This document shows, one piece after another, positions 1 through 43,774 of a DNA stretch of 64,000 bases (its first letter is position 1; each line of letters starts with the position of its first letter). Below the pieces are notes generated by a model, which saw only the letters and a list, made by a program, of their open reading frames with translations, did not search any database and was not told the DNA's origin. The position numbers were made by a program, and so were the translations under genes. Source of the DNA: Chamaelirium japonicum (taxonomy: Eukaryota; Streptophyta; Magnoliopsida; Liliales; Melanthiaceae); contig OX393549.1 in the NCBI GenBank assembly GCA_947650365.1, positions 26,689,209-26,753,208 of the forward strand, written 5' to 3'.

Positions 1-2541
1 GGTCACCTTGTGACCAGAAGAGGTATTGAGGCCAACCCCGACCAAATTCGAGTTATCCTCGACATACCATTGCCTACCAATCGGAAAGAAGTTCAACGAC
101 TCACTAGAAGGTTAGCAGCACTCAATCGATTCATCTCAAAATCTTCCGACAAGTGCAAACCCCTATTCGACAAACTACGAAAGGCGGATACTTCAGGGTG
201 GAGTTCAACTTGCGAAGAAGCTTTTCAGAGCATCAAGAAATATCTGGTGCAAGCTCCTATCCTGACTGCTCCACTTCCAAAAGAATACTTGTGGCTCTAC
301 CTCGCCGTGACCGATCAAGCAATCAGCGCGGTCCTAGTCAGTAGAAGAGAAGGTGTCGAGCATCCAGTCTACTACATCAGCCATACTCTCCTTCCAGCTG
401 AAACTCGTTACTCAAAAACTGAGAAGGTCATCCTGGCGTTGCTCACTGCATCGCGTCGTCTTCAACCTTACTTCGTCTCCCACCAGATCACTGTCATTTC
501 AGAACACCCGCTCAAAGATATTGTTGACAAAGCTGGTAGAGCTGGTCGAATGACCAAGTGGGTGATCGAAATGAGTGCTCTGGGGATTCAGTTCGAATCT
601 CGCACTTCTATCAAAGGTCAAGCTGTTGCTGATTTTCTAGCAGACTTTCCAGTTGAAGACCCCATCACTTGGGAAGAAGATGTCGACATGCGCTTAGAAG
701 ATGAGGACAATACTCCGATCAACCTTACAACAAAAAGTGATCCAAGTCTCGAAGCTATCGCTGCAACTCCTCCATGGAAGCTTTATACTGATGGAGCTTC
801 AAGTTCAATCGGTTCAGGAACTGGGATAGTCTTAATATCCCCCGAACTTGATCATCTACAGAAGGCCACTCTCCTAGGGTTCAACGCCACCAACAACGAA
901 GCCGAATACGAAGCACTCATTTTCGGACTCGAAATGGCGGAATCCCTGGGGGTAGATCGAATCATCGTCTACAGCGACTCCCAGTTGATCATAAGGCAAA
1001 TCAATGGAGAGTACACAGCTCGTGAAGAAAGAATGCAACTCTATTTGGCCTTAGTACGACGTCTTCAACAACGTTTTACTATTACTGATTTCGTTCAAAT
1101 CCCAAGAGCAGAGAACCGAGAAGCAGATGCCTTAGCCAACGCTGCCTCAGTTCTTGGAGACTCACTCGGAGGAAGGCAAATACAGATCGATTATCAAGAA
1201 GTGCCCAAGACCATCCCCGATCAACAGATCCTTGCTACTACAAAGAGATCTGGGGGTGGAGATCAGCTCACATTGAACCTCACTACTACAAGTGAGCCTG
1301 AAGACTGGAGACGATCAATCTTTGATTTCTTCAAACATGGCAAAATGCCAGAAGATCCAAACCAAGCCCGAAGACTTCAAAGGAAGCTCCCCTGCTACAC
1401 TGTTCAAGGAGAAGATCTATATTTCAAATCTCATAACGGGATATTTCTCAAGTACCTTTGCCCAGAGCAAGCAAAAGCAATCTTGATTGATATCCACTCT
1501 GGAGCTTGTGGGAATCATTCGGGAGAAAGATCTCTTGAAGCTAAGACTAAACTACAAGGTTACTATTGGCCTACAATGGCAAAAGATGCTCGACAAGTTG
1601 TTCAAAGATGCGAGCCATGCCAACGGCACGCTCGAGCTATCCATCTCCCTGCAGATGAGCTTCATCAACTATCAAGCCCCTGGCCTTTCCATCAATGGGG
1701 GTTAGATTTCCTGGGTCCTTTCCCCCCGACTCCAAGCAAGAAGAAATATCTGTTGCTAGCCACGGATTACTTCACCAAGTGGGTTGAAGCTGTGCCCCTC
1801 TTCCGAGAGACTGACGACGAAGTGATCAAATTCATTCGGCATAATATCTTCTCAAGGTTCGATACACCTCAAGTTCTTGTTGCTGACAATGGAGCTCAGT
1901 TTGACTCCGACAAGTTCCGAGAGTTCTGTCTGAACAACGGTATCAAGCTATTCTATTCAACTCCAAGATATCCTCAATGCAATGGTCAAGCTGAAGCCTC
2001 GAATAGAGCTATACTTGGTATACTCAAGAAAAAACTCAACGACAAGAAGGGATTGTGGGAACAGGTCCTACCTGAAGTTCTTTGGGGGTATCGCACAACT
2101 CCGAGAAGATCAACTGGGTTCTCGCCTTTTCGTCTAACATATGGATCAGAAGCAGTACTCCTAACAGAAAACATATCAAGTACTCTGAAGACCAGGGCAG
2201 TTGAAGAAGGAATCAACGAAGAGCTTCGAATCAATGATCTAGACTTCTCTAAAGAACTACGAGACCAAGCTTCTCTTCGTGTGGCCAAATATCAGCAGAA
2301 GATCAAACGAGCCTACGACGAGAAAGTCCGCAAAAGACAGTTCCCAATCGGCAGTCTGGTCCTTAGAGCAGTCTTCTACAACACAAAGGAGCGCAGCAGT
2401 GGGAAGCTTGCTCCCAACTGGGAAGGTCTGTATATCGTTGAATCAGTAGGAGGCAAAGGTTCTTACAGACTGATCTCACCAGAAGGAGATAGATTGCCTC
2501 GAGCTTGGAACTCTAAACATCTCAAGTTGTTCTATCCATGA
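1..2541 (+). CDS. pol: gag-pol polyprotein of element A1, C-terminal part (RT end, two RNase H, integrase)
   Basis: Open from base 1 to a stop after 847 codons; the start is outside the window. Residues below count from base 10. The end of the reverse transcriptase (thumb motif around RRGIEANPDQ) is followed by a gypsy-type RNase H (about 100-215) and a second, archaeal-like RNase H (about 255-385) with the D-E-D-D residues in YTDGAS, NEAEYEA, YSDSQL and EADALAN. The integrase follows: zinc motif (HSGACGNH ... CEPC, about 495-535) and catalytic D566, D626 and E662, the last two separated by 35 residues. No chromodomain is visible, as expected for Tat. The polyprotein copies the element RNA and integrates the cDNA. 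No internal stop is present, unlike in A2. It converges on the antisense gene that ends at 3087. Confidence 0.93.
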   Translation, partial: GHLVTRRGIEANPDQIRVILDIPLPTNRKEVQRLTRRLAALNRFISKSSDKCKPLFDKLRKADTSGWSSTCEEAFQSIKKYLVQAPILTAPLPKEYLWLYLAVTDQAISAVLVSRREGVEHPVYYISHTLLPAETRYSKTEKVILALLTASRRLQPYFVSHQITVISEHPLKDIVDKAGRAGRMTKWVIEMSALGIQFESRTSIKGQAVADFLADFPVEDPITWEEDVDMRLEDEDNTPINLTTKSDPSLEAIAATPPWKLYTDGASSSIGSGTGIVLISPELDHLQKATLLGFNATNNEAEYEALIFGLEMAESLGVDRIIVYSDSQLIIRQINGEYTAREERMQLYLALVRRLQQRFTITDFVQIPRAENREADALANAASVLGDSLGGRQIQIDYQEVPKTIPDQQILATTKRSGGGDQLTLNLTTTSEPEDWRRSIFDFFKHGKMPEDPNQARRLQRKLPCYTVQGEDLYFKSHNGIFLKYLCPEQAKAILIDIHSGACGNHSGERSLEAKTKLQGYYWPTMAKDARQVVQRCEPCQRHARAIHLPADELHQLSSPWPFHQWGLDFLGPFPPTPSKKKYLLLATDYFTKWVEAVPLFRETDDEVIKFIRHNIFSRFDTPQVLVADNGAQFDSDKFREFCLNNGIKLFYSTPRYPQCNGQAEASNRAILGILKKKLNDKKGLWEQVLPEVLWGYRTTPRRSTGFSPFRLTYGSEAVLLTENISSTLKTRAVEEGINEELRINDLDFSKELRDQASLRVAKYQQKIKRAYDEKVRKRQFPIGSLVLRAVFYNTKERSSGKLAPNWEGLYIVESVGGKGSYRLISPEGDRLPRAWNSKHLKLFYP

Positions 2542-3086
2542 TGTAAATTCTGTGATGAATAAAGATCTCTTTCAAATGATCAAATGTGCAAGTGTTCAGC
2601 TTTTCAATTCAAGTTCTGAAGCAGTTTCAAATTATCTACATTCAAGTTACCAAGTCTTTTAACAAGTTTGGGTGTTGAGTTGCGACTCAACCCCTTACTA
2701 AATGTTAAACTGACCTTCAAATTTCAAATATTCAATTTCAATCAATTTCAATATCGTCTAACAGGTTTGGGTGCTTGAGTTGCGACTCAACCCCTCACAT
2801 TCAAATGTTACACGAATTCAAGTTCAATTTTCAAGTTGCAATAAGTTTTGGTAATTGAGTTGCGACTCGACCCATTACATTCGAAAAGTTGTATCTATTC
2901 CAATGCTATCCAGTACATGATATTAAAGCTATCCAGTACATGATATTAAAGACATTCATCTCAAGAGATTCAATTTTCAAACACCAAAAAGATCTTTTGA
3001 TTATCAAAACTTGCCAAGTACAACGTTGAGCTACAACATGTCAAAAGTTTACAAGTGTAAATAACAGAGAAAAAAGTAGAGATACA
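2542..3086. other. spacer between convergent pol and antisense gene of A1
   Basis: About 545 bp of AT-rich DNA between the pol stop and the stop of the antisense gene; no ORF is supported. An AATAAA motif lies about 15 bases after the pol stop (around 2559). Three copies of a hairpin motif occur here (annotated separately), along with a short direct duplication around 2907-2950 (GCTATCCAGTACATGATATTAAAG repeated, quoted here only as its ends GCTATCC and ATTAAAG). The stretch must hold the 3' ends of both convergent transcripts. Confidence 0.6.
2670..2873. repeat. three spaced hairpin repeats in A1 spacer
   Basis: Copies at 2670-2694, 2769-2794 and 2850-2873 share GAGTTGCGACTC. Each folds as a stem (TTGAGT with ACTCAA) around a TGCG loop, extended by GGG/CCC outside a small bulge. 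The copies are about 80-100 bp apart. The same motif occurs four times at the equivalent place in A2. Confidence 0.75.
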
Positions 3087-5866
3087 TCAGGGCTTTGCTA
3101 CGCTTGGAGCGCGCGACTTCTCTCCTTCAGATTTGCCGCGAGCCTTGCTCACAACCGAAGCTTTAGAAGATCGGACACTGCTGATATGTACCCTGAGTGC
3201 CTCTGCCGCTTTCTCGGCCGTTTCCTTATAGCTCTTGCATTCAGACAGCGCATGCTCCAATGCCTTCCTGGAAGTCTCCTCTCTGGCAGAAAAAGCAGCA
3301 TGTTGAGCAGCAAGTCGTTCTTTCAGCTCCTTGATCTCGTTGTCGCGACCACAGGACACGTCCTCAGCCTTGACGAGCCGATTCGTCAAGGATTCAAGTT
3401 CGTGACTCTGCGCCTCGCAACGGTCCTGCAGCCCCTTGATCTCCAGCTTCCCCTTGCGAAGATCCACGATCTTGGCCTTGAGAGAGGTTTTCTTCGAAGT
3501 CAGGAGCTCCCTCAGCTTCTCTCTTTCCTCGCTCACAGCCTTCAGTTCGGCTGTCAAACGGGATACCTCAGATGTGGCCTCCCGTTCTCCTGCCTTCCTA
3601 GAGAGAGAGCTTGTGATTCTCAAAACTGCTGAGCTCTGCAGATGGATAGAAAGTTAGAATTATTCCAAAGATACAACTCAAATATTCGATCAAGAAGATA
3701 CACATACCACTACATCTAGACGATCGAAGGCTTCTTCAAAAGTAGCTTCCGGAATATTGCAAAGCTTCCGGATCACGCTAGTAGGGTGGTTGATGTCAAC
3801 ATCACCCAAGCTCTTTATCTTCGGAGTCGAGCCAACAGGCGTACCTGCAATCGACACAAGAGTTCAAAGTGTTAGAGTATTTTCGAGCTTCAAAGACAAG
3901 GCAATCGAAGCAAGTTAGTGCAGATACCTGAAGCCTCGACCTGAGGAGCCTTTCCCTTCCCACGGTCGGAGCTCTTACCCTTGGGGGTCGACTTCTCCTT
4001 GATGTGGGTTGGCTCTGACAAGGGTTGGGGGGTAGCCTCACCCACCCGGCTTCCTCTCTCCAAGTGAGCAGGAGAGGGAACATCCCGAGGAGGTGAAGCT
4101 CCCCCTTCATCTTCTCGCCCGCTCGAATTATCGAGCCCTGCCACCATGGCAGCTACCTCCTCAGCCAGAGATCGTGAGGGGGGTGGGGGTTGTTCAACCT
4201 CCACACCCCCACTTGTAGTTGCCCCTTCGAGACGGGGAACCTCGGGAGGTACCTGATCGAGGGGTGTAGGGTTGCTTCCAACCCCACCACTCCCCGATAT
4301 CTTGATCTTGAAGCGAAGCGGGTTCTTTTTCAGCTCCCCAAAATCGTAGGTAGGAATCACGTTAGGGCCATCGCCCGTTGCGTCCATTACCCCCTCCATC
4401 TTACGAGCCTTTGCCTCGTCTATGAGGATCGGCAGCGAATCCTCATCAGCACCACCAGTGGGGGTGGGAGGAATTTCCTCCTTGCCACCCCCATGTCCTT
4501 GACCACCATCAGTGGGGGTGGGAGGAATCTCTTCCTCACCACCCCCATCTTCATCATCATCATCTTCTCCATCTTCTTCCCCGTCGCTGCCTGTGCCCTC
4601 ATCCTCCTCATCTCCGCCTTCCTCCTCCCTCTCTACCTCCTCTTCTTCATCTTCCCCCTTCTTTTTCTCCTCATCCTCCTCCTGTTTGATGGGGATTTTT
4701 CTCTTCTTCTTCGCCGGGCCCCTCTGAATCACCAATTTCTCCTCTGTGGGAAGTGCGCGCCTGGCTCCATAAGCCTTCTTCTCGAATCGAAGCCTTCTAA
4801 CAATTTTTCCAGACTGAGGGTCCTCCTCGTAATCTGAGTAGATGACCTCATTATCTTCGTAGCAAAGCTTCGATCGATGGAGGAGGTTGGCATTGCCGTG
4901 TCGAACCGGGCAATTCGAGAATTGCTTCCAAGATCGAGTCCCGCATGTCAACTCCAAGAAGAGGTTGTCAAGGGCCCCTACTCGCTCTGAAGGCCAAGAG
5001 AGAGCTCCTCCTGTGCAGTACATGTCGATCTCTTCATGCACCTTGTATCGGGGAACCTCCGGAACAGACATTGGAGTCCAGGCACCAGACACTGACAGCG
5101 GCCAGTCAGTATAAAGTTTGTCGGAGCCAATTGTGTCAGCAATCGGGCGAAGGGCAGTGACACCTGTCAAGTAGTAGAACGGGCTATCCTTTCTCCAAGC
5201 CCATCGGTAATGGTAAAAGAAATACCCCAGCTCGATTCGGGCTTCTTCACCTTCAGGGAGGCTGGAGTAGCATTCCCTAAGTTCCTTCTGGAAGTCCGAC
5301 TCTACGCGACAGAAAGCGTAGATGATCCTCCAGGAGTTCTCGGTAACCTGCCCGGGACAGAGACCGGAGGTGTTCAACAACCTCGCGGCGAAAGGCGGCA
5401 GCGGAAGGCGCAGTCCACAGTTGAGCTGGCCGATCGTGACTATGGTTCCCATCACTTGCTCTTTGCTCGCCCACGAGACAAAGATTGTCCGCCTATCAAC
5501 GCCAAAAGCAGTTAGAACTCCAGGGAGTGCTGGTCGAGCCTTTCCCTCTATGAAACATGCCAGCAACTCCTGCAGCTTCTCCCTCTTTACATCTGTAAGT
5601 TTACTGCCAATGTTGTACCCAAACTCAATCTCCACCTCCAAAGGTAGCTGCGGGCAGAGGACAAACTTTGCCTTGGGGATCTGCTCTGGCCTTGATGGTG
5701 CAGAAGCGAATCCCACTCCTTGGTGCCTCTTGCCCAGTTGGCCAAGCTCGATCAATTCGGCCCTGCCTTTGCCTCGGCCCTTCGGAACAGAAGAGACCTC
5801 GACAACTTCCTTGCCCTTCCTCTTGGAAGGAACTACACTCTTCTTCGAACTGCCCGAAGATGCCAT
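3087..5866 (-). CDS. spliced antisense gene of A1, PF04195-like ('putative gypsy type transposon') protein, 874 aa
   Basis: Read on the minus strand with exons 5866-3928, 3844-3708 and 3635-3087. Both introns (3845-3927, 83 bp; 3636-3707, 72 bp) have GT...AG ends (CAG/GTATCTG ... TTGCAG and GTG/GTATGTG ... CTGCAG). The joined exons total 2,625 nt, exactly 875 codons including the stop, with no in-frame stop. ATG 5866 (MASSGSSKK) was chosen because A2 starts at the same place and a TATA box lies about 100 bp upstream. Domains: basic N-terminus, a PF04195-like globular region (about 35-330), a Glu/Asp-rich stretch with PPTPT repeats (about 390-480), a proline-rich linker, and a coiled coil in exon 3 (about 695-874). 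Antisense ORFs of this type are known in Tat elements; their function is unknown. The family call is from memory of its motifs, not a search. Confidence 0.82.
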
Positions 5867-5966
5867 TTGACCGATCGAAAGGAGACGAAGAACAAGAGAG
5901 GGGAAGCAAAGAGTCTGGACTTTGAAAAATTCTGAAAGCGTGAGGCGAAAATGACAGCGAGAAAGA

Positions 5967-5974
5967 CTTATATA
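5967..5974 (-). promoter_or_regulatory. TATA box of the A1 antisense gene
   Basis: Minus strand reads GTATATAAGT about 100 bp upstream of the antisense ATG. A2 has lost the motif at the equivalent site (around 15376-15390). Confidence 0.5.
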
Positions 5975-6294
5975 CCCAGGATAAAACGGTACGCAAATCG
6001 AGAAGACACGTGTCTTCACCATATCAAATCGCGTGTTTTTGCAGGTACACGTGGCATCCATCCATAGCAAGTGCAAATTCAGGTGAATCGTCGGACCAGA
6101 CGAAGCGTCAGACCCACCGGTCCACGTAAACCAACGGTCCAAGCAAACCACCGGTCTGAGTGAACCGGACCGCCGGTTCAAAGCCACATTCAGGCAAACT
6201 GAAGATTCAAACTCCATCGATATTCAAGACTGCCAAAGATCAAAGAAGAAGAACAATCTATACCACTTCCTCAAAAGTACAGGTTCAGGACTTT
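5975..6294. other. upstream region of A1 antisense gene
   Basis: No gene is supported. The minus strand stays open here by chance, upstream of the preferred start. Short CCACCGGTCC-like repeats occur around 6110-6175, with an equivalent patch in A2 near 15520-15590. Confidence 0.5.
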
Positions 6295-7505
6295 AACCTT
6301 GACCGGCTGATTTTAGCCGTTCGGTCAAACTTGACCGATCGGTCAAAATCAACCGATCGGTCGATTTTCTACTAGATCTGGCAAAAAACTGAGGTTTTTT
6401 ACCGATCACCCAAACCTTGACCAGCTGATTTTAGCCGTTCGGTCAAACTTGACCGATCGGTCAAAATCAACCGATCGGTCGATTTTCTACTAGATCTGGC
6501 AAAAAACTGAGGTTTTTTGTCGATCATCCAAACCTTGACCGGCTGATTTTAGTCGTTCGGTCAAACTTGACCGATCGGTCAAAATCAACCGATCGGTCGA
6601 TTTTCTACTAGATCTGGCAAAAAACTGAGGTTTTTTGCCGATCACCCAAACCTTGACCGGCTGATTTTAGCCGTTCGGTCAAACTTGACCGATCGGTCAA
6701 AATCAACCGATCGGTCGATTTTCTACTAGATCTGGCAAAAAACTGAGATTTTTTGCCGATCACCCAAACCTTGACCGGCTGATTTTAGCCGTTCGGTCAA
6801 ACTTGACCGATCGGTCAAAATCAACCGATCGGTCGATTTTCTACTAGATCTGGCAAAAAACTGAGGTTTTTTGCCGATCACCCAAACCTTGATCGGCTGA
6901 TTTTAGCCGTTCGGTCAAACTTGACCGATCGGTCAAAATCAACCGATCTGTCGATTTTCTACTAGATCTGGCAAAAAACTGAGGTTTTTTGCCGATCACC
7001 CAAACCTTGACCGGCTGATTTTAGCCATTCGGTCAAACTTGATCGATCGGTCAAAATCAACCGATCGGTCGATTTTCTACTATATCTGGCAAACAACTGA
7101 GGTTTTTTGCCGATCACCCAATCCTTGACCGGTTGAAATTGACCGTTCGGTCAAACTTGACCGATCGGTCAAAATCAACCGATCGGTCGATTTTCTACTG
7201 GATCAGTCAAAAAACCATGTTTTTTGACCGATCACCCAATCCTTGACCGGTTGAAATTGACCGTTCGGTCAAACTTGACCGATCGGTCAAACTTGACCGA
7301 TCGGTCAAACTTGACCGATCGGTCAAACCTGACCGAACGGTTAAAATTGACCGATTGATCAAAATTGATCGATCGGTCAAAATCAACCGATCGGTCGATT
7401 TTCTACTGGATTGGTCAAAAAACCATGTTTTTTGACCGATCACCCAATCCTTGACCGGTTGAAATTGACCGTTCGGTCAAAATTGACCGATCAGTCTTTT
7501 TTATG
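6295..7505. repeat. 118-bp tandem repeat array in A1 3' UTR, about 10 units
   Basis: Unit starts (AACCTTGACC) recur at 6295, 6413, 6531, 6649 and 6767, exactly 118 bp apart; later units are more variable. Each unit has two or more copies of the palindrome GACCGATCGGTC and one perfect hairpin, GGCAAAAAAC with GTTTTTTGCC around a 4-nt loop. The last units change both arms together (GTCAAAAAAC/GTTTTTTGAC, around 7205-7228). Tandem repeats in the 3' UTR of Tat-type elements are known as a source of satellite DNA. Confidence 0.9.
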
Positions 7506-7613: not shown

Positions 7614-7652
7614 TGTGGGTGCAAATTTTAGCAGAAGATTAACGACTACCGC

Positions 7653-8035
7653 GGGACCCACCGGCCCTGCCTGGTGGGCCCACGAGGACTACCGCGGGAC
7701 CCACCAGCCCTGCCTGGTGGGCCCGCGAGGACTACCGCGGGACCCACCGGCCCTGCCTGGTGGGCCCACGAGGACTACCGCGGGACCCACCGGCCTTGCC
7801 TGGTGGGCCGACGAGGACCACCGCGGGACCCACCGGCCCTGCCTGGTGGGCCCACGAGGACTACCGCAGGACCCACCGGCCCTGCCTGGTGGGCCCACGA
7901 GGACCACCGTGGAACCTACCGGCCCTGCCTAGTGGGCCCATGAGGACAACCGCGGAACCCACCGGCCCTGCCTAGTGGGCCCATGAGGACAATCGCGGGA
8001 CCCACCAGCCCTGCCTGGTGGGACCAAGAACCTGT
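7653..8035. repeat. 43-bp GC-rich tandem repeat inside the A1 LTR, about 9 units
   Basis: Units start GGGACCCACC at 7653, 7696 and 7739, a 43-bp period, and continue to about 8030. Each contains CCCACC ... GGTGGG arms. The A2 LTR has only two or three diverged units (about 18069-18180). The proline/glycine-rich reading frames here are by-products of the repeat. Confidence 0.88.
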
Positions 8036-8130
8036 GGAATCCCCCAGAAGACGGTAACGAGGCCCGCCAGCTTTACCTGGAGGATCCCCAGATACTGCAG
8101 CAGAAACCGCCTTTTACCACCAGAAAATTC

Positions 8131-8138
8131 TATAAATA
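8131..8138 (+). promoter_or_regulatory. TATA box in A1 LTR
   Basis: TATAAATA after TTC, in a segment nearly identical between the two A LTRs (the A2 equivalent is at 18240-18247). It is the probable promoter for the genomic RNA, leaving about 420 bp of R-U5. Confidence 0.7.
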
Positions 8139-8560
8139 GCAGAGCCTTCGAATGTAAAAGGATCGAATCTAAGATCCGAAATCCATTTTCCACTCTGAGA
8201 TCTGATTTTCAGAACCAGAGCTCTGGAATTTCTATCTTCTCACCCTTCACCTCTACTTGATCATCTTCTTGTCTGTGAAGAGATCAAGAAGGCTTCAGTA
8301 GCACTCGGCCTGTCGAGGTTACTTTGAGGAAAGTGTTAGTGAATTCGGGTTGCACCCTATAGCACGGAGACGTAGACTTCGGCTGAACTCCGAGATCACT
8401 TCTCGTGTCAAACTCTCTCTCTCTGATTGCATCTCTCTGTTTACATATCAAAAACTTCAACTTCGATCAACAGATCGACCAACGATCTTCGACGTCAACT
8501 TCAATTCCAATTGACTGGTGAGGCGAGGTCTTCGGGTCGGCACGAAGATTTTCACCCACA

Positions 8561-11500
8561 ATGGTATCTTTCCTCCAATCCAATATCGACGTTTTTGCTT
8601 GGTGCTTTGAAGACATGCCTGGGATCAATCCAGATGACGCTTGTCACCGACTCGCGATCAAAGAAGAGGTGAAGTCGGTCAAGCAAAAGCCACGCACCAT
8701 CCGACCAGAACTACAAATTGTCGTACAAGAAGAAATTACTAAGCTACTCGCAGCAGGCTTCATCCGTGAAGTAGAGTATCCTACTTGGATCTCTAACATA
8801 ATTGCAGTTCCAAAGAAGAATAGGAAAGTCAGAGTCTGCATCGACTTCACCAATCTCAATAAGGCGTGTCCCAAAGACCCATTCCCCATGCCAAGGATTG
8901 ATAGACTCGTCGATGCCACTGCTGGCCACGAGCTATTGTCTTTCATGGATGGGTACTCTGGATACAATTAAATTCCACTTCATCCAGATGATCAAGAGAA
9001 GACATGTTTTGTGACTAGCCGAGGTCTCTACTGCTACAATGTAATGCCATTCGGCCTCAAAAATGCTGGATCCACCTATCAAAGGTTAGTCACGAAGATG
9101 TTCGAAGATCAGATCGGTCGCAACGTTGAAGTATACGTCGATGATCTCCTTACCAAGAGCTCCAGTAGAGGAAAGCATTTATCTGATCTGGCGAAAACCT
9201 TTCAAGTCCTTCGAAAGTATCGTATGAAGCTCAATCCTGCCAAGTGCGCTTTCGGAGTTCAATCTGGCAAATTCCTGGGTCATCTTGTGACCAGGAGGGG
9301 CATTGAAGCTAATCCCGACCAAATTCGAGCCATCCTCGACATGCCATCACCTACTAATCGGAAGGAAGTACAGCGTCTCACTGGAAGACTTGCTGCCCTC
9401 AATCGATTCATCTCAAAGTCTTCCGATAAATGTAAGCCTCTGTTTGACAAGCTGCGAAAGGCGGATACATCGGGATGGAGTCCAATTTGTGAAGAAGCTT
9501 TCCAAGGCATCAAGAAATATCTGGTGCAAGCTCCTATCCTTACTGCTTCACTTCCAAAAGAAGACTTGTGGCTCTATCTTGCAGTGACCAATCAAGCAAT
9601 CAGTGCGGTCCTAGTCAGTAGAAGAGAAGGCCTTGAGCATCCAGTCTATTACATCAGTCATACTCTTCTTCCGGCTGAGACTCGCTACTCAAAAACTGAG
9701 AAGGTCATCCTGGCCTTGCTCACTGCATCGCGTCGTCTCCAACCCTACTTCGTCTCTCATCAGATCACTGTCATTTCAGAACACCCACTCAAAGATATTG
9801 TCGACAAAGCTGGTCGAGCTGGTCGAATGACCAAATGGGTGATCGAAATGAGTGCTCTGGGGATTCAGTTCGAATCTCGCACTTCTATCAAAGGTCAAGC
9901 TGTTGCTGATTTTCTAGCTGACTTTCCAGTTGAAGACCCCATCACTTGGGAAGAAGATGTCGACATGCGCTTAGAAGATGAGGATAATCCTCCAATCAAT
10001 CTTGCAACAAAAATTGATCCGAGTCTCGAAGCTATTGCTGCAACTCCTCCATGGAAGCTTTACATTGATGGAGCTTCAAGTGCGATCGGTTCGGGAACTG
10101 GGATAGTCTTGGTATCCCCCGAACTTGATCATCTACAGAAGGCCACTCTCCTCGGATTCAATGCCACCAACAACGAAGCCGAATACGAAGCACTCATTTC
10201 TGGACTCGAAATGGCTGAATCCCTGGGGGTAGATCGAATCATCGTCTACAGCGATTCCCAGCTGATCATAAGGCAAATCAATAGAGAATATACAGCTCGA
10301 GAAGAAAGAATGCAACTCTACTTGGCCTTAGTACGACGTCTTCAATAACGTTTTACTAATACTGAATTCATTCAAATCCCAAGAGCACAGAACCGAGAAG
10401 CAGATGCCTTAGCCAATGCTGCCTCAGTTCTTGGAGACTCACTCAGAGGAAGGCAAATACAGATCGATTATCAAGAAGTGCCCAAGACCATCCCCGATCA
10501 ACAGATCCTTGCTACTACAAAGAGATCTGGGGGTGGAGATCAATTAATGTTGAACCTTACTACTGCAAATAAACTTGAAGACTGGAGACAGTCAATTTTT
10601 GACTTCTTCAAATATGGCAAGGTACCAGAAGATCCCAATCAAGCCCGAAGACTTCAAAGGAAACTTTCTTGCTATACTATTCAAGGAGAAGATCTATATT
10701 TCAAATCTCACAATGGGATGATGCTCAAGTGTATTGGTCCAGAGCAAGCAAAGGCAATCCTGATTGATATCCACTCTGGAGCTTGTGGAAATCATTCGGG
10801 AGGAAGATCTCTTGAAGCCAAGACAAAACTACAAGGTTACTACTGGCCAACAATGGCAAGGGATGCTCAGCAAGTTGTTCAAAGATGCGAGCCATGCCAA
10901 TGACACGCTCGAGCTATCCATCTCCCTGCAGACGAGCTTCACCAACTATCGAGTCCATGGCCTTTCCATCAGTGGGGGTTGGACTTCTTGGGTCCTTTCC
11001 CACCAACTCCAAGCAAGAAGAAATATCTACTGTTGGCCACAGATTACTTCACCAAATGGGTTGAAGCTGTGCCACTCTTCAGAGAGACCGATGATGAAGT
11101 GATCAAGTTCATTCGACACAACATCTTCTCAAGGTTTGGTACACCTCAAGTTCTTGTTGCTGACAATGGAGCTCAATTTGACTCCGACAAGTTTCGAGAG
11201 TTCTGCCTAAACAACGGGATCAAACTCTTTTATTCAACTCCAAGATATCCTCAATGCAATGGTCAAGCTGAAGCCTCCAATAGAGCTATTCTTGGTATAC
11301 TCAAGAAGAAACTCAACGACAAGAAAGGATTATGGGAACAAGTCCTACCAGAGGTTCTTTGGGGGTATCGCACAACCCCGAGAAGGTCAACAGGGTTCTC
11401 ACCCTTTCGTCTGACATATGGATCGGAAGCAGTACTCCCAACAGAAAACATATCAAATACTCTCAAGACCAGGGCAGTTGAAGAAGGAATCAATGAAGAG

Positions 11501-11818
11501 CTTCGAGTCAATGATCTGGACTTCTCTGAAGAACTACGAGACCAAGCCTCCCTTCGTGTGGCCAAGTATCAGCAGAAGATCAAACGAGCCTATGATGAGA
11601 AAGTTTACAAACGGCAATTCCCTATCGGCAGTCTGGTCCTTAGAGCAGTCTTCTACAACACAAAGGAACACAGCAGTGGGAAGCTTGCTCCCAACTGGGA
11701 AGGTCCATATATTATCGAATCAGTTGGAGGAAAAGGCTCTTATCGACTGATCTCACCAGAAGGATATAGATTGCCACGAGCTTGGAATTCGAGACACCTC
11801 AAACTGTTCTATCCATGA
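8561..11818 (+). pseudogene. pol: pol of A2 (RT, two RNase H, integrase), three nonsense codons
   Basis: The frame runs without frameshift from 8561 to the stop at 11816-11818. It contains the reverse transcriptase (NIIAVPKKNRKVRVCIDF, FMDGYSGYN, active-site YVDD near 9135), both RNase H domains and the integrase with HHCC and D-D-E residues as in A1. Three in-frame stops break it: TAA 8969-8971 (after FMDGYSGYN), TAA 10346-10348 (after the second RNase H helix) and TGA 10901-10903 (after CEPCQ). Where A1 covers the site it has CAA or CGG, so the changes are C-to-T, plus one G-to-A. It lacks gag and protease because the frame begins at the A1 junction. Confidence 0.88.
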
Positions 11819-12441
11819 TGTAAACTCTATGATGAATAAAGTTCTCTTTCAAATGTTCAAATGTGCAAGTGCTCAGCTTTTCAATTCAAGTTCTGAAGCA
11901 GTTTCAAATTATCCATATTCAATTTACCAGGTCTTTTAACAAGTTTGGGTGTTAGAGTTGCGACTCAACCCCTTACTGGCAAATGTTAAAACAATTTCAG
12001 GTTGTCATTCAAAGCAACCTTCAAGTCACTGGTCGGTTTAACAAGTGGGGGAGTTTGTGTTGCGACACTACCCCTTACTTACAAATGTTAAACTGACCTT
12101 CAATTTCAATATTCAATTTCAATCAATTTCAATATCGTCTAACAGGTTTGGGTGTTTGAGTTTTCGACTCAGCCCCTCACATTCGAATGTTACACGAATT
12201 CAAATTCAATTTTCAAAGTTACAAGTTTGGGTAATCGAGTTGCGACTCGACCCCTTACATTCAAAAGAGTATCTATTCAAATGCTATCCAGAACCTGATA
12301 TTCGAAGACATTCAACTCAAGAGACATCCAACTTTCAAACATCAAAAAGATTTCTATTATCAAAAATTTACCAAGTACAGGAGTGAGCTGTTACATATCA
12401 AGAGTTTACAAGTACAACAACGAAAAAGAAGATGGAAAATC
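11819..12441. other. spacer between pol and antisense gene of A2, with four hairpin repeats
   Basis: Counterpart of 2542-3086, with no gene. Hairpin copies lie at about 11946-11971, 12047-12074, 12150-12175 and 12229-12253. The last has TCGAGT pairing with ACTCGA where A1 copies have TTGAGT with ACTCAA, so both arms changed. The second and third copies have decayed stems. Confidence 0.65.
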
Positions 12442-15275
12442 TCAAGGCTTGGCCACACTTTGCACGTGTGACTTCTCTCCCTCGGATCCACCGCGAGCTT
12501 TGCTCGCAACCGATGCCTTGGAAGATCGGACACTGGTGGCATGGACCCTGAGTGCCTCCACCGCCTTCTCGGCTGTTTCCCGGTAGCTCTTGACTTCTGA
12601 TAGCGCATGCTCTAACTCCTTCTTGGAGGTCTCCTCTCGGGCAGCAAAAGCAGCATGCTGGACAGCAAGTTGTTCCTTCAGCTCCTTCACTTCAGTGGCA
12701 CGATCACTAGACACGGTCTCAACCTTGCAGATCCGACTCTTCAAGGATTCGAGTTCGTGACCCTATGCCTCGTTACGGTCCTGCAATCCCTTAGTCTCCA
12801 GTTTCTCTTTGCGAAGCTCCTCGATCTTGGCCTTGAGAAACTCCTTCTTTGAGGACAACACCTCCCTCAGCTTGTCCCTCTCCTTGCAGGCAGCCTTCAG
12901 TTCAGCTGTCAAGCGGGAAACTTCAGCTGAAGCTTCCTTTTCTCCCGCCTTCCTGGAGAGCTTGCTTGCGACTTTCAAAACTGCTGAGTTCTGCAAAAGT
13001 ACAAAAGAGTTAGAATTATTTTGAAGATACAACTCAAATGATTCGATCAAGCAGATGCACTTACCACCAGGTCAAGCCTGTCGAAGGCTTCATCCAGAGT
13101 AGCCCCCGGAAGGTTGCAGAGCTTCCGGATTACAACCGTGGGGTGGTTGATGTCAACATCACCCAGATTCTTTATCTTCTGAGTCGAGCCAACAGGCGTA
13201 CCTGCAATCAACACAAGAGTTAAAAGAGTTAGAATATCTTCAACTTCAAAGACAGAGCAATCGAGAGGGTGAATCATTCCGAATACCTGAGGCATCGACC
13301 TTAAGCTCTTTTCCCTTCCCATGGCCAGAACTCTTACCCTTCGAGGCAGACTTCTCCTTAGAAGGGGTCGGTTTCTTCTGGAGTTGGGGAGTCTCATCCC
13401 CCACACGACTTCCTCTCTCCATATGAGCTGGAGAGGGAATGCCCCGAAGAGGTGAGTTCCCCTCTTCACCTTGCGGCTGCACGAGCCCAGCCACAAGGGC
13501 TGCCATCTCCTCAGCCAGAGAGTGCGAGGGAGGAGGAGGCTGCTCAACCTCCAAACCGCCACTTGCAGTCGGGCCTTCAAGACGAGGCACCTCTGGGGGT
13601 ATCTAGTCGAGGGGCGTAGGGTTGCTTCCAACCCCACCGCTCCCCGAAAACTTGATCTTTATGCGAACTGGTCGCTTCTTCAACTCCTCGAAATGGAAGA
13701 CGGGCTGTGCTTTCTTGCCGTCACCCTCCACATCCATAACCTCCTCCATACGACGGGCTTTAGCCTCATCGATAAGGATGGGTTGTGAGTCCTCATCATC
13801 CCCACCAGTGGGGGTGGGAGGAATTTCTTCCTCGCCACCCCCATGTCCTTGACCACCATCAGTGGGGGTGGGAGGAATTTCTCCCTTACCACCCCCATTT
13901 CCACCATCAGGGGAGGTGGGAGAAGTATCCTCATCACCCCCATCTTCGTCATCCTCATCATCTTCATTTCCTCCTTCGGCACTGCCATTGCTGTTATCAG
14001 CATTATTATCGTTATCATCATCGCCACCCTCATCCTCCTCTCTCTCTTCTTCCTCTTTTTCTTCTTCCCCCTTTTTCTCTTCATCTTTCTTCTCCTCCTC
14101 CTCAGCATAGACCTTCCTTTTGTTCTTTGCTTGACCTTGGCGACGGATCACCAGTTTCTCCTCTGAAGGCAAGCTGCGCCTGGCTCCGTACGCCTTCTTC
14201 TCGACCCGAATGTTTCTAACAATTTTTCCGGATTGAGGGTCCTCCTCATAATCGGAATAGATGACCTCGTTATCTTCGTAACGAACCTTCGATCGATGGA
14301 GGAGATTGGCATTGCCGTGTCGAACAGGGCAATTCGAGAATTGCTTCCATGATCGAGTCCCGCATGTCAGCTCCAGAAAAAGATTGTCAACAGCCCCCAC
14401 TCACTCCAAAGACCACGAGAGAGCTCCTCCTGCACAGCACATATCTACCTCTTTGTGCACCTTGTACCGGGGAGTCTCAGGTACCGACAGAGGAGTCCAT
14501 GCACTAGACACCGATAGCGGCCAGTCGGTGTAGAGCTTGTCCGAGCCGATAGTGTCAATAAGGCGGAGACACCCGTCAGATTGTAGAAGGGACTATCTTT
14601 CCTCCAAGCCCATCTATAGTGATAGAAGAAATACCCCAGCTCGATCCGGGCTACTTCACCATCAGGGAGGCTGGAATAGCATTCCCTGAGTTCCTTCTAG
14701 AAGTCAGACTCTACGTGACAGAAAGCGTAGATGATCCTCCAGGCGTTCCCAGTAACCTGCCCGGGACAAAGGCCGGAGGTGTTCAGCAACCTCGCGGCGA
14801 AAGGCGGCAATGGAAGGCGCAGTCCACAGTTGAGCTGGCCAATGGTGACGATGGTTCCCATCACTTGCTCCTTGCTCGCGTAGGTGATGAAGATTGTCCG
14901 CCTGTCGACACCAAAAGCAGATAGAACTCCCGGAAGCGTTGGTCGAGACTTCCCCTCTGTGAAACATGCAAGCAACTGCTGCAGCTTCTCCCTCTTCACG
15001 TCAATAAGTTTGCCACCAATATTGTACCCAAACTCCGGTTCCGCCGACAAAGGCAACTGTGGGCAAAGAACAAATCTCGCTTTGGGAATGTGCTCCGGAC
15101 GGGAGGGTGCAGAAGCAAACCCCACTCCTTGGTGCCTCTTGCCCAATTGACCAAGTTCGATCAACTCGGCCCTGCCTTTGCCACGGCCCTTCAAGACAGA
15201 TGTTTCTTCAACGATTTCCTTCCCCTTCCTCTTGGAAGGAACCGAGACCTTCTTCGAACTACCGGAGGAGGCCAT
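12442..15275 (-). pseudogene. antisense gene of A2, PF04195-like, degraded
   Basis: Same layout as the A1 antisense gene: ATG at 15275, exon 1 to 13287, intron 13202-13286, exon 2 13201-13065, intron 12991-13064, exon 3 12990-12442. All four splice sites keep GT or AG. It is broken by TAG codons at 14698-14700, 13604-13606 and 12763-12765, and by a deletion with frameshift near 14555-14570. The three TAG codons match CAG in A1, that is C-to-T on the coding strand. The acidic stretch is longer than in A1 and Asn/Asp-rich. Its TATA box is also lost. Confidence 0.8.
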
Positions 15276-15723: not shown

Positions 15724-17930
15724 AATCCTTGACCGGCTGATTTTAGTCGATCTGTCAAACTTGACCGATCGGTCAAAATCAACCGATCGGTCGATTTTCT
15801 ACTAGATCTGGCAAAAAACTTGTGTTTTTTGCCGATCACCCAAACCTTGACCGGCTGATTTTAGCCGATCGGTCAAACTTGACTGATCGGTCAAAATCTA
15901 CCGATCTGTCAATTTCCTACTAGATCTGGCAAAAAACTTGTGTTTTTTGCCGATCACCCAATCCTTGACCGGCTGATTTTAGCCGATCGGTCAAACTTGA
16001 CCGATCGGTCAAAATCAACCGATCGGTCGATTTTCTACTGGATCTGGCAAAAAACTTGTGTTTTTTGCCGATCACCCAATCCTTGACCGGCTAATTTTAG
16101 CCGATCGGTCAAACTTGACCGATCGGTCAAAATCAACCGATCGGTCGATTTTCTATTGGATCTGGCAAAAAACTTGTGTTTTTTATCGATCACCCAATCC
16201 TTGACCGGCTGATTTTAGCCGATCGGTCAAACTTGACCGATCGGTCAAACTTGACCGATCGGTCAAAATCAACCAATCGGTCGATTTTCTACTAGATCTG
16301 GCAAAAAACTTGTGTTTTTTGCCGATCACCCAAACCTTGACCGGCTGATTTTAGCCGATCGGTCAAACTTGACCGATCGGTCAAAATCTACCGATCTGTC
16401 GATTTCCTACTAGATCTGGCAAAAAACTTATGTTTTTTGTCGATCACCCAATCCTTGACCGGTTGATTTTAGCCGATCGGTCAAACTTGACCGATCGATC
16501 AAAATCAACCGATCGGTCGATTTTCTACTGGATCTCGCAAAAAACTTGTGTTTTTTGCCGATCACCCAATCCTTGACCGGCTGATTTTAGCCGATCGGTC
16601 AAACTTGACCGATCGGTCAAAATCAACCGATCGGTCGATTTTCTACTGGATCTGGCAAAAAACTTGTGTTTTTTGCCGATCACCCAATCCTTGACCGGCT
16701 GATTTTAGCCAATCGGTCAAACTTGACCGATCGGTCAAAATCAACCGATCGGTCGATTTTCTACTAGATTGGACAAAAAACTTGTGTTTTTTGCCGATCA
16801 CCCAAACCTTGACCGGCTGATTTTAGCCGATCGGTCAAACTTGACCGATCGGTCAAAATCTACCGATCTGTCGATTTCCTACTAGATCTGGCAAAAAACT
16901 TGTGTTTTTTGCCGATCACCCAATCCTTGACCGGCTGATTTTAGCCGATCGGTCAAACTTGACCGATCGGTCAAAATTAACCGATCGGTCGATTTTCTAC
17001 TGGATCTGGCAAAAAACTTGTGTTTTTTGCCGATCACCCAATCCTTGACCGGTTGATTTTAGCCGATCGGTCAAACTTGACCGATCGGTCAAAATCAACC
17101 GATCGGTCGATTTTCTACTAGATCTGGCAAAAAACTTGTGTTTTTTGCCGATCACCCAAACCTTGACCGGCTGATTTTAGCCGATCGGTCAAAATCTACC
17201 GATCTGTCGATTTCCTACTAGATCTGGCAAAAAACTTGTGTTTTCTGCCGATCACCCAATCCTTGACCGGCTGATTTTAGCCGATCGGTCAATCTTGACC
17301 GATCGGTCAAAATCAACCGATCGGTCGATTTTCTACTTGATCTGGCAAAAACCTTGTGTTTTTTGCCGATCACCCAAACCTTGACCGGCTGATTTTAGTC
17401 GATCGGTCAAACTTGACCGATCGGTCAAAAGCAACCGATCGGTCGATTTCCTACTAGATCTGGCAAAAAACTTGTGTTTTTTGCCGATCACCCAATCCTT
17501 GATCGGCTGATTTTAGCCGATCGGTCAAACTTGACCGATCGGTCAAAATCAACCGATCGGTCGATTTTCTACTGGATCTGGCAAAAAACTTGTGTTTTTT
17601 GCCGATCATCCAATCCTTGACCGGCTGATTTTAGCCGATCGGTCAAACTTGACCGATCGGTCAAAATCAACCGATCGGTCGATTTTCTACTGGATCTAGC
17701 AAAAAACTTGTGTTTTTTGCCGATCACCCAAACCTTGACCGACTGATTTTAACCGATCGGTCAAACTTGACCGATCGGTCAAAATCAACCGATCGGTCGA
17801 TTTTCTACTAGATCGGTCAAAAAACTATGTTTTTTGATCGATCACTCCAACCTTGACCGGTTGAATTTAACCGATCGGTTAAGTTTTACCGATCGGTCAA
17901 ATTTGACCGATCAGTCTATTTTTACGCTAA
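15724..17930. repeat. 118-bp tandem repeat array in A2 3' UTR, about 19 units
   Basis: Same repeat as in A1 with about twice as many units. Most units carry GGCAAAAAAC-TTGT-GTTTTTTGCC plus GACCGATCGGTC palindromes. Two unit types alternate (ending CAATCC or CAAACC, with CTACCGATCTGTC in some), which suggests blocks of more than one unit were amplified. Confidence 0.9.
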
Positions 17931-18033: not shown

Positions 18034-18657
18034 TGTGGGTGCAAATTTTGGCAAGAAGTCTGCAAACAGCGGGACCCACCGGCCCTGCCTGGTGGGCCCC
18101 CGAGTACCACAGCGGGACCCACCGGCCCTGCCATGTGGGCCCCCTAAGACGGCAGCGGAGCCCACCAGCCCTGCCTGGAGGATCCCCGGATACTACAGCA
18201 GAAACTGCCATTTACCCCGGAATTCCTCTTCGAGAATTCTATAAATAGCAGAGCCTTCGAATGTAAAAGGATCCGAAATTTCTGATTTCCACTCTGAGAT
18301 CTGATTTTCAGAATCCAGAGCTCTGGAATTTCTCAGTTTCCCATCTTCCACCTCTCTTTGATCTTCTTCTCTCCTTCAAAGAGATCAGAGTGTTTTCAGT
18401 GATACTCGGCCTGTCGAGATCACTTTGATATAAGTGTTAGTGAATTCGGGTTGCTCCCTATAGCACGGAGACGTAGGCTTCGGCTGAACTCCGAGATCAC
18501 ATCTCTCGTTTCAAATCTCTGATTGCATCTCTCTCTCTGTTTGCATATCGAAGGCAACGACTTCAATCAATAGATTGAGCAACGATCTCTTCGACTCGAA
18601 ACTTCAATTGACTGGTGAGGCGAGGTCTTCGGGTCGGCACGAAGATTTTCCCCCACA
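18034..18657 (+). mobile_element. 3' LTR of A2 (624 bp)
   Basis: Starts TGTGGGTG after the polypurine tract at 18020-18033 and ends CCCCCACA, 7 of 8 bases of the inverted repeat. TATAAATA is at 18240-18247. Base 18658 resumes an open pol frame of element B. Confidence 0.87.
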
Positions 18658-20270: not shown

Positions 20271-23200
20271 CTAGAAGAAGGTGTCCAGAGATCGAAGACG
20301 GCACAGCAGCTCCTCTCTAGTCGCCTCCACTCGCTGAAGCTCCACGGGACGAGCAGCCAGAAGCTCGCGACGGGTTGCCAAGTCCGACTGCTGCTTCAGG
20401 TAACTCGCCCTCAAAGCGCTCTCCGCGACCTCGGCTCGCTCCAGACGAGACTCCGCCTTTCGAAGTGAGGCGCGCACAGACTCTATCTTCCTCTGAGCCT
20501 TCGACAGGCTGGAAGTGGCCTCCGCAAGTTGGTGCTCTGACTGACTTAGACTCGCCTCAGCAGCCTCCAACTCAGAAGAGGAGCTCCCCTCTAACAAAGC
20601 TCGCCGGGATCGATAAGACTCGCTATCAGTCACAAGCTGGTTCATCTGAGCGACGAAAGAAGAGCTGTCAACTTTGAACTCCTGCAGGCTCGCACAAAAC
20701 TCCGCACCGTCAGTCGACCACCAGTCCTGGAGAGCGCCAAAGCCAGCATTTTGGAAAGGCTCCAGCGTCGACTCTATATACTGCTGGTAGCTCGCAAGAA
20801 GGAACTCTGAGACTCTACTCCTCGGCCTCAAATCCGGGCGAGGTGCCTCGGAGTAAGTAGGCAAGACCTTCCCTCCCACTGCAGCCGCAACAGGAGCCGC
20901 CTGCGCCAACGAGGGTGGCGGAACCGGAGAAACCGCCGCTATCGCTGCAACAACCGTCTCCCCCAACGGGCACGGGGGTACAGTAACCAGGGAGTGCCGC
21001 TTGTCAACGCTCGAAACCTCAGCTTCCTCGTGGAAGGACAAAGCGTCAACGTCAATGTCGTCCAGGTCAATGTCGCCACTGGGGAAATTCTCCCCGCAAA
21101 GCCCAAGGAGATCCAGATCATCCGGAGGGATGTCTAGCCCACAGGCTTCTGGCACTTCCTGCGCAGCGCCAGTGGACGAGTGCCCAAGAGGTGCCTTTGG
21201 GGAGTTCACCTTGCGCTCTACCACTACAACGGAATCTGGTCAAAAGGAAGATCCGATGCTCAGTGTGATAAAACTTCCTGAACATAGAGGGCAAATAAAA
21301 TAAAGAGAACTCCATACCTGTGTGGTCAGATGAAGCGGCCCTAGACGGGGGAATCACTTCATCCTTCAGAAGTCCAGGCTCCTCGGCATCCTCCACCAGA
21401 CAAGGGACCCTTGGGACCATCCCGCGGGGAATGCAAACTTTTCTTCGTTTAGGAGGGACACCCTCGATTTCGGCCTTCGAGAAACAAGATGCCCCAGGGG
21501 CATTAGTAAGCTCGGCATCCAGCGCCGGAACGGAAGAAGGGACACGACGAGCACTGGAAAGACGACTACAGCTCCTCTGCTCTTTGAAGCCCCAGTCGGA
21601 GGCGGCAGTCCTCTACTCCCGCAGAATGATTGAAGCAGAAATTCCTGAACCCGCTATCGCCAAGACGTCGACTGGAAAACTCGCAAGTAAAGGGGAAACT
21701 CGCCCTTCAACCCACTTGCAGTGTTCCGGAGTGGCGGCGTCCCGAAACCCAGATTTGGCCCCAGGAAAGAAACTGCTGCCAGTCAAGCGAGCGTAGAGAG
21801 AAACCCACAGACGGTAACCCTCCTGCGGACTGATACGCCCCTGCAACTGCTGAGGCATGCCAGGAACTTCCTGTCGAAACCCCTGTTGGCGAGCAAAGCG
21901 ATGGGGGAGTACTGCTCTACCTCCACCACATCCCCCTTGCGCCAGACCAAGTAGCCAGGACGGCAGCTGACCATGTTCCAGTAAAGACTGTTCGGGAGCT
22001 CCTCGTTATCATACACAATCGACCTCTCCAAAGGCAGCACCGAATGCTCCGATAGAAATTCAAAATCGACGCTCCCCATCCTCCTCAAAAGGGTGCGAGC
22101 ACACTCTCTCGGACGCTCCCAACTGATAAAGGCGTTTAAGATCCCTCTTATCCCGGGCAGGAAAGGCAGCTCGGCTGGATGCCCGCGTCTGGCAAAGATC
22201 CCCTTCGGGAAATGCAGAGCTATCCAGCCGTACAAATAATGCAAGGGTCCGAACGTAGTCGACCGGCCAAGCTCCTCCTTGGCCTTATCTGAGCCAGACA
22301 AGTCCCAGTAAGTCCCGCTGAGAGCCCGGTACAAGGCGCATAGTATGGCAGGGGCTAGATTGAAAAGCTCGCCCCTCTCCATCCTGGAAGCTGCAAGGAA
22401 CGTCCCCAGACGAATAACCTCCCCAGAACACGGAAGCACGAACCGGCAGAGGAAGATGACCAGCCCGGCAGCTCGGTAAACCGAACGCCACTCCTCGCTG
22501 TCGCGTTTCAAGCCGAGGATTTCCCAGGGGCACGGCTTCCCCTCCATTGAATGCTTCTCTCGAGCCAAAGAGTCGATAGGCCTCACAAAGAAGCGAAGCG
22601 GAGGTCTCTGCATCTAAGCGATCTTCCATATTGGGTGAGCTAAAGGCACTGGAGACCTATACTCACCTTTGAACCAAAAGTCGACCCAAGAAGAAGGACG
22701 CACTCGATCTGATTGATCCCGTGCCGCAATGATAGCATATGCCTTGAACAAAAGAAGGCAAGAGCTCGGAGCGTAGCTGCTGTCCAACAGATCCTTCAAG
22801 GTGGGCACCTCCTCCTGATAGTAATTCCGTACTTCGGGGCACCCGGAAACGATATGGACGTCGCGAAGCGAGATGCCTATCTCCCCCGCTCCAGTGAGGA
22901 AAGTGTTGGTGTCCGGACACCAAAGCTCACAAAGTGCACGGTACATCCCCTCAGGACGACTGTACTCTCGACGAGCCGGCGCCAGAAATTTGGCCAATAA
23001 GTTCATCTCAGGTTCTGCGCCAAAGACCTTATAGAGCTCTCCCATCCATTCGCAAAAGCCACAAAGGTACTGGACGTCTCCCCGAGGCCAAGAATCGGTG
23101 CCCCATCGGGTCAGCCTGGCGCATATCTTCAAGGCAACAACCGGCGTAGGCACGAAATCTTCATCACAATGGTGGAACGGAAGACTCAAACTCGGCCGAA

Positions 23201-23480
23201 GAAGCTTCATGGAGATCCCTTCGTCAGTGTGAATCTTCTCGCTTAATTTCGGCATCCCACAAGTCGCATCCGCGACTCCATCTTCTGTGATGCGATCGTG
23301 CACAAAGACACGGAGCAACGACTGAAGGTCTTCCCGCCTTGAATTGCGGTGACGGCACACACGAGTATAGGGAAAGCAAAGGCACCTCCTCCCATCGAAG
23401 AAATCCTCGGCTATCCACCCTGGAGAAGTCAAACTCTCGAAGACGCGAGCCCTGGAGGACCATGAAGGGAGGCAAGTCAA
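20271..23480 (-). pseudogene. antisense gene of B: plant mobile domain-like protein with coiled-coil tail, degraded
   Basis: The minus-strand N-terminal part (about 23480-21620) resembles the plant mobile domain: GEIGISLRDVHIVSGCPE, then FNLAPAILCALYRAL and LHYLYGWIALHFP. A likely intron lies near 22614-22674 (donor AAAG/GTGAGT) and a frameshift near 21870. The C-terminal part (exon 21235-20271) is acidic and then a long Ala/Glu/Arg coiled coil. A clear intron, 21236-21317 (82 bp, CAG/GTATGG ... CCAG), joins ...SDHTG to DSVVVVERK in frame. Plant mobile domains are known both in host genes such as MAIN/MAIL1 and in gypsy elements. The true start is not clear. Confidence 0.7.
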
Positions 23481-33907: not shown

Positions 33908-33913
33908 AGTTTT

Positions 33914-33931
33914 TGGCGCCGTTGCCGGGGA
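33914..33931 (+). other. primer binding site for tRNA-Asp
   Basis: TGGCGCCGTTGCCGGGGA, 18 bases complementary to the 3' end of plant tRNA-Asp (...CCCCGGCAACGGCGCCA), six bases after the LTR. Confidence 0.88.
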
Positions 33932-34040
33932 TTGCAACGGAGCTTTCGAATTTTGGTTATTCCTTACTTGCCTTAGTTAGTTTTATCAGTTTTGTTAGAT
34001 TAATTTTTAGAGTATATCAGTTTCTTAATCTTTAACCAAA

Positions 34041-37425: not shown

Positions 37426-37427
37426 TT

Positions 37428-37441
37428 TAAGTTTGGGGGTG
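37428..37441 (+). other. polypurine tract of LARD-like element
   Basis: TAAGTTTGGGGGTG directly precedes the 3' LTR start TGTTGAGC. Confidence 0.75.
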
Positions 37442-43294: not shown

Positions 43295-43353
43295 CTCGCT
43301 GTAACATCCGTCCCAAACACACAAGATTTTGTCCGTTTTACCCGTGCCCGCAC

Positions 43354-43423
43354 GAGAACTTCCCAGGGGGTCACCCATCCTGGTACTACTCTCGCCCGAG
43401 CACGCTTAACTACGGAGTTCTCA
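43354..43423 (-). other. 5S rRNA-like promoter segment in Cassandra 3' LTR
   Basis: The minus strand matches the 3' half of plant 5S rRNA, including the internal control region: box A AGTTAAGCGTGC, intermediate element GGGCGAGAGTAGTA and box C GGATGGGTGACC. It is 5S-derived, not a complete 5S gene. Confidence 0.9.
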
Positions 43424-43774
43424 CGAATTCCGTAGCGGCGCACGGTTTTAAAACGCGTCTTCTATGTTTGGGAGGGGAAATTATATAAGTAGCTCAGGAT
43501 CTCCTTCTCTCCAGGTGATGTAGAGCTAACTCATGGCCTTGTACACCTCACCTCACCTCACCTCACCTCATCCATCTTGGCATTCCCGCCTCAGGAGTCT
43601 TGGCTCTTGGCTATTGGCCTATTGGATCTTGGTCGTCACAATCCACCCCCCTTAGGGCTACAAGTCCACGTGTAGGGTTAGACACCCCCATTGCAAGGAG
43701 AACCGGCTCTGATACCATTTTGTAACATCCGTCCCAAACACACAAGATTTTGTCCGCTTTGCCCGTGCCCGCAC

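Follow-up and report, generated by a model that had tools for sequence, protein, structure and literature searches.

We describe an antisense gene of a long terminal repeat (LTR) retrotransposon that is, with a probability of about 0.72, a spliceosomal accessory gene with three exons belonging to a Retand-like element. It lies on the minus strand of the analyzed window (64,000 nt of Chamaelirium japonicum contig OX393549.1), which also holds a second, decayed copy sharing its intron sites and reading frame. Antisense TRP28 genes are already known from such elements. We found no description of a gene with two introns in which TRP28 and a coiled-coil C-terminus are combined.

Gene structure in two copies

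Joining the minus-strand segments 5866-3928, 3844-3708, and 3635-3087 (Table 1) gives 2,625 nt, comprising 874 codons with the terminal stop as the sole stop, which agrees with the length reported in a preliminary description after removal of two GT-AG introns. The TATA box that it placed ~100 bp before the ATG was also recovered. The gene is convergent with pol, between the end of pol and a 118-bp tandem array. Both introns of copy 1 contain CTAAC as a branch-like site, and their T content (36% and 44% for introns 1 and 2) exceeds that of exons 1 and 3 (18-20%). In the absence of splicing, the minus strand is open at 3890-6223 and 3087-3653.

Table 1. Coordinates of the antisense gene, its carrier element, and related features in the window.
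Feature	Position	Strand	Remarks
pol 3' part (RNase H, second RNase H-like domain, integrase)	1-2541	+	open to stop 2539-2541; cut by window start, including RT
Exon 3	3087-3635	-	carries stop; SMC-like coiled-coil C-terminus
Intron 2	3636-3707	-	72 nt, GT-AG, GTG/GTATGT..CTGCAG/A; CTAAC begins 22 nt from intron end
Exon 2	3708-3844	-	spliced-frame codon-position differences 6/4/15 vs copy 2
Intron 1	3845-3927	-	83 nt, GT-AG, CAG/GTATCT..TTGCAG/G; CTAAC begins 31 nt from intron end
Exon 1	3928-5866	-	ATG at 5866; 646 codons + 1 nt; phase-1 donor; alternative donor 3978
Transposase_28 (PF04195; TRP28) match	5303-5440	-	residues 143-188; E 8e-5, 23.2-23.3 bits vs curated cut-off 26.2
TATA-like box TATATAAG	5967-5974	-	starts at 5974, 108 nt upstream of ATG
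~118-bp tandem repeat array	about 6296-7500		between antisense promoter and LTR
LTR	7614-8560	+	TGTGGGTG..CACCCACA, TATAAATAG inside; 947 bp; 8-bp inverted ends
Second antisense gene copy, decayed	12445-15275	-	introns 13286-13202 (85 nt) and 13064-12991 (74 nt)
LTR after second gene copy	18034-18657	+	
Decayed antisense gene, other type (Plant mobile domain)	20274-23525	-	behind integrase ORF; putative intron donor 21317, acceptor 21236 or nearby
Distant decayed relative of N-terminal half	46834-47799	-	27% identity over 160 aligned positions; TATA box at 47879

The join is indeed frame-perfect, as the preliminary description emphasized, but its value as evidence had been overstated. The 314 GT-AG intron candidates of 60-150 nt can be combined into 117 two-intron structures that end at the same stop (as do three one-intron structures in a scan of 60-300 nt), so the join by itself is weak evidence for introns. 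What decides for introns as such is the comparison with copy 2, in which GT and AG are both kept for 28 of the 117 structures, including the pair 3927-3845 and 3707-3636; all 28 are in frame there as well (≤1 internal stop allowed). A simple, self-written score combining splice consensus and T-richness ranked this pair first of 117 on copy 1 and second of 28 on copy 2, where a slightly better score went to a pair differing solely in the intron 1 donor (3978 for 3927). Because they are identical in both top-scoring structures, intron 2 and the intron 1 acceptor can be regarded as firm, the intron 1 donor less so.

All evolutionary comparison of the gene rests on these two copies within the window, which are 74.7-84.7% identical depending on the segment. 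Both introns occupy the same sites in copy 2, each being 2 nt longer than in copy 1, and splice sites and branch-like motifs are common to both copies at about 80% identity. Exon 1 carries indels of 3, 3, 18, 45, and 9 nt, plus one 10-nt deletion in copy 2, and exons 2 and 3 (686 nt) carry none. The intron indels measure 3, 1, 1, and 1 nt, with 1-nt indels in both introns, so that from the start of intron 1 to the stop codon all four indels fall within the two introns; the flanks differ by 1, 1, 1, 1, 15, and 26 nt upstream and by 1, 2, 2, 2, and 22 nt downstream. In its spliced phase, exon 2 is free of stops in either copy and shows 6/4/15 differences at codon positions 1/2/3, whereas the other two phases contain 2-4 stops per copy. 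The gene had been called intact, which holds for copy 1 but not for copy 2, given the 10-nt coding deletion and four in-frame stops among the aligned codons. In a sequence comparison of the two copies, copy 2 lacks the TATA box. Overall, the two-intron structure is well supported but unproved.

Selection and the encoded protein

Selection on the gene product, which the preliminary description had inferred, is borne out by a dN/dS of 0.178, not near 1 (95% bootstrap 0.143-0.222; Nei-Gojobori, copy 1 vs copy 2; 859 of 874 codons, with 11 skipped at gaps and four dropped for copy-2 stops). The ratio was 0.103 for residues 1-240, 0.120 for 241-380, 0.212 for 381-640, and 0.225 for 647-874 (exons 2-3). 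Control frames shifted on the same strand gave 1.27 and 1.33, and those on the opposite strand gave 1.41, 1.78, and 0.284, the last with 29 codons dropped for stops and low, as expected, because third positions are shared with the gene. For pol, the ratio was 0.080 (842 of 844 codons compared, two dropped for stops). A reshuffling test, in which the observed changes were shuffled within sequence-context classes (1000 shuffles), pointed the same way: the whole gene had 235 nonsynonymous changes vs 370.5 ± 9.4 expected (0/1000 shuffles as low), codons 647-874 had 70 vs 98.7 ± 4.8, and codons 647-692 (junction codon and exon 2) had 11 vs 17.9 ± 1.8, the lowest of the 1000 shuffles being 11. Such depletion supports a minus-strand coding gene under protein-level selection.

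Three comparisons weigh against protein-level selection. Codon positions 1 and 2 of exons 2-3 diverge about as much (0.145 and 0.162) as intron 2 (0.153), and transversions alone give 0.079/0.061/0.079 at positions 1/2/3 of codons 647-874, compared with 0.049-0.056 in the introns; the C-terminal constraint thus rests on transitions and on the within-codon contrast. The N-terminal constraint is strong on both counts. Between the copies (1-5866 vs 9278-15275), dS is 0.72 in the antisense gene, nearly double the 0.385 of pol, whereas raw divergence is far below the gene dS (introns 0.15-0.21; introns and flanks 15-22%). This excess may possibly reflect synonymous sites that are hypermutable, introns under constraint, or recombination within pol.

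Beyond the Transposase_28 match (Table 1), exon 3 scored weakly against SMC coiled coils (TIGR02168, E 1.2e-4, 20 bits vs a cut-off of 567), a score of the kind that coiled coils often give, and matched 17 weak NCBIfam families, mostly coiled-coil. Exon 1 had no match in NCBIfam and a single one in PHROGs (E 0.46), and neither exon 1 nor the exon 3 ORF matched a bZIP domain in Pfam. Both copies carry a long acidic stretch, preceded by a basic one that reads KKKRK in copy 1 and KNKRK in copy 2. The predicted structure of residues 60-372, based on a four-row alignment, had a mean pLDDT of 37.5. Exon 1 had no relative among PDB sequences (best match E 0.02) or in IMG/VR, GTDB contigs, and plasmids, and pol had none in IMG/VR, all being collections with little plant DNA.

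The carrier element and other antisense genes

Domain content and dimensions suggest that the carrier is a Retand-like (Tat clade) Ty3/gypsy element. The pol ORF contains RT_RNaseH_2/RT_RNaseH at 67-192 and RVT_3 at 273-382, i.e. the dual RNase H that is a feature of the Tat family (PMC9289625). Between the pol stop (2541) and the LTR start (7614) lie 5,072 bp; this distance, like the 947-bp LTR, falls within the ranges published for Retand (2,933-6,566 bp for the region between pol and the 3' LTR, 315-1,194 bp for the LTR; PMC11963269). About half of Retand elements have tandem arrays in this region, with units of 8-100 bp (PMC11963269); the array found here has a slightly longer unit of 118 bp. 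The antisense gene fits the TRP28 ORFs of Retand in position and orientation, with a PF04195 score (E 8e-5, 23.3 bits) under the cut-off of 26.2.

The LTR ending at 8560 is followed directly by the truncated pol (RT) of another element, and the LTR ending at 18657 by an integrase. Since truncated foreign pol stands directly after each LTR, the elements are arranged head to tail and share single LTRs. The length difference between the two LTRs (7614-8560 and 18034-18657) stems from 43-bp repeats. Units of 118 bp occupy 6319-7500 and also 15749-17900, and both arrays lie between antisense promoter and LTR. The palindrome TTGACCGATCGGTCAA is intact in 19 of 21 aligned units; an exact match occurs 26 times in the window, always within one of these two arrays. 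It holds two TTGACC cores that resemble plant W-boxes. The array was considered as an operator for the antisense protein, but this is not claimed here, as TTGACCGATCGGTCAA shows no clear excess of conservation over the remainder of the unit (14/16 positions invariant in 21 units vs 69/102 elsewhere; rank 3 of 118 windows).

The decayed antisense gene of the other type (20274-23525) matches PF10536 in two pieces (E 3.5e-7 and 6.4e-5, both below cut-off). Its frame changes at a good donor, 21317, and 25 of 126 candidate introns restore the frame, among them the top three by score, which all use this donor. Judging from the coordinates, the putative intron would be of phase 1, as is intron 1 of the main gene; from a single copy with other breaks present, it is suggestive only. 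Two further structures were observed in the window. One is a pair of direct repeats at 43300-44064, 344 bp long, 98% identical, and separated by 77 nt; each contains a minus-strand 5S rRNA-like stretch, and the pair looks like a Cassandra-type TRIM. At 31635-39715, a young LTR pair (2,274 bp, 99.4% identical) flanks a 3.5-kb interior with one 597-aa ORF lacking a Pfam match and the primer-site-like sequence TGGCGCCGTTGC.

Working model, alternatives, and known systems

We infer a working in which RNA polymerase II would start at an internal promoter near 5974 and read from the 3' LTR side toward pol, and both short introns would be spliced out of the antisense transcript. The resulting mRNA would encode an 874-residue protein with an N-terminal TRP28 region, a basic and then acidic linker, and a coiled-coil C-terminus. 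This protein would enter the nucleus, where it would act on its element, with binding to the element's DNA or to its pre-integration complex as the likeliest route; that it regulates the element at all is a tentative proposal, about which we are more doubtful than confident. The introns would persist through transposition: the copied genomic RNA holds them as CT..AC only, which would not be spliced, so they would survive reverse transcription. This reasoning, by which the preliminary description explained intron retention through the antisense arrangement, is sound, but it had missed the precedent of HTLV-1 HBZ and is not new in principle.

The main structural alternative dispenses with splicing and assumes two separate antisense ORFs, one encoding a 658-residue TRP28 protein (to 3890, with its stop inside "intron 1") and the other the coiled coil (3653-3087). 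Both frames are open as they stand, and the published survey lists TRP28 and Smc antisense ORFs apart (PMC11963269). However, codons 647-692 belong to neither ORF in the spliced phase, yet they look coding in exactly that phase (11 nonsynonymous changes vs 17.9; 6/4/15) and contain no indel; we regard two independent ORFs as distinctly unlikely. An intron-retaining 658-residue isoform may nevertheless exist beside the spliced form. If what look like introns were instead parts of a formerly uninterrupted ORF that had decayed or shifted frame, the visible decay of copy 2 and the many GT-AG combinations that keep the frame would be readily understood. The prospects of this explanation are remote, given splice sites and branch-like motifs common to both copies at about 80% identity, the shift in composition at the proposed intron borders in copy 1, and the fact that all four indels from intron 1 onward to the stop lie within the introns.

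Two other readings concern the role and the origin of the gene. The antisense RNA itself could matter, through dsRNA or siRNA control of the element, with the protein being incidental, as proposed as a possible role of LTR-element antisense transcripts (PMC7264820). It would not predict a dN/dS of 0.18 or three-base coding indels, and we consider it very improbable as the sole function; RNA and protein roles may act together. A host gene or other transposon captured in reverse with its introns, shortly before the copies arose, would explain the introns as a host-gene feature, and Plant mobile domains do occur in Gypsy elements (PMC9289625) and in the host proteins MAIN and MAIL1. So recent an event is scarcely credible: a distant relative is also antisense elsewhere in the window (46834-47799), and 97% of Retand clusters carry TRP28, for which no similarity outside transposable elements was found (PMC11963269). 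That relative and the 97% together imply that any capture was ancient.

Beyond the three-exon gene that we favor, introns might be general in Tat-clade antisense genes, of both the TRP28 and the Plant-mobile-domain types. The antisense strand would then be the sole permanent intron site in an LTR element, and the element would use introns to give its regulator a host-like mRNA that escapes the silencing of intronless transcripts. We hold this extension to be unlikely. Silencing of intronless transcripts is known for the human HUSH complex (PMC8770142), and plants would have to behave likewise by analogy. If introns were general, the TRP28 and Smc antisense ORFs that were published as "separate" would together form the exons of a single gene, single-ORF surveys would have split the accessory protein, and its function would need to be asked with the full-length protein.

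The preliminary description noted antisense ORFs of unknown role in Tat-type elements as a known kind, but it missed the Transposase_28 match and what is known of promoter and nuclear product for Grande gene23. Antisense TRP28 ORFs between pol and the 3' LTR were found in 97% of surveyed Retand clusters and were reported from all but two of the 63 larger ones (Vicient 2025, PMC11963269). That survey used ORF Finder, listed 104 antisense ORFs in the 63 clusters with TRP28 and Smc apart, and predicted DNA binding (PMC11963269). The gene described here resembles these ORFs in its antisense orientation, its position between pol and the 3' LTR, a Transposase_28 match (here below the cut-off), the nearby arrays (in about half of the published elements), and Smc-like domains (in some). 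They were reported as single ORFs, with the word "intron" occurring 0 times in the main text (PMC11963269), whereas here TRP28 and the coiled coil are apparently exons of one gene. Among the passages listed by main-text word searches (12 of 18 matching places for PMC12786077), none described introns for accessory ORFs on the antisense strand of plant elements in PMC11963269, PMC7264820, PMC6317226, PMC11728184, PMC9289625, PMC12786077, PMC8365987, PMC6431247, or PMC5408684, and the titles and abstract openings searched had none; 10.1007/s10709-012-9654-9 and 10.1007/s11103-013-0019-2 fall outside this scope, so absence from print is not established.

Grande gene23 of maize, compared by description only, is likewise an antisense accessory gene. 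It is transcribed from a promoter of its own lying upstream and its product is nuclear, and the same article urges that spliced antisense transcripts be examined (PMC7264820). In bdelloid rotifers, the additional ORF3s of LTR elements typically form transcriptional units of their own with spliced messages, as proposed here; in the passages on ORF3 in PMC5408684, antisense orientation is not described. HTLV-1 HBZ is an antisense retroviral gene with a spliced mRNA and a regulatory product (PMC1459196); it starts in the 3' LTR and encodes a bZIP protein, whereas the gene described here has a putative internal promoter and no bZIP match. As a rule, LTR elements of plants have no introns, Ogre and EVADE being exceptions (PMC12786077). 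In these two, functional introns lie in the sense transcript of the element (PMC12786077, PMC6317226), whereas the putative introns described here are antisense and read CT..AC in that transcript. They are the mirror image of the standard retrotransposition reporter, which has its intron in the sense orientation of the element and loses it (PMC12786077). If general, the arrangement would show introns being retained stably, in nature, by an LTR element that replicates through RNA, and would offer a parallel in plants to HTLV-1 HBZ.
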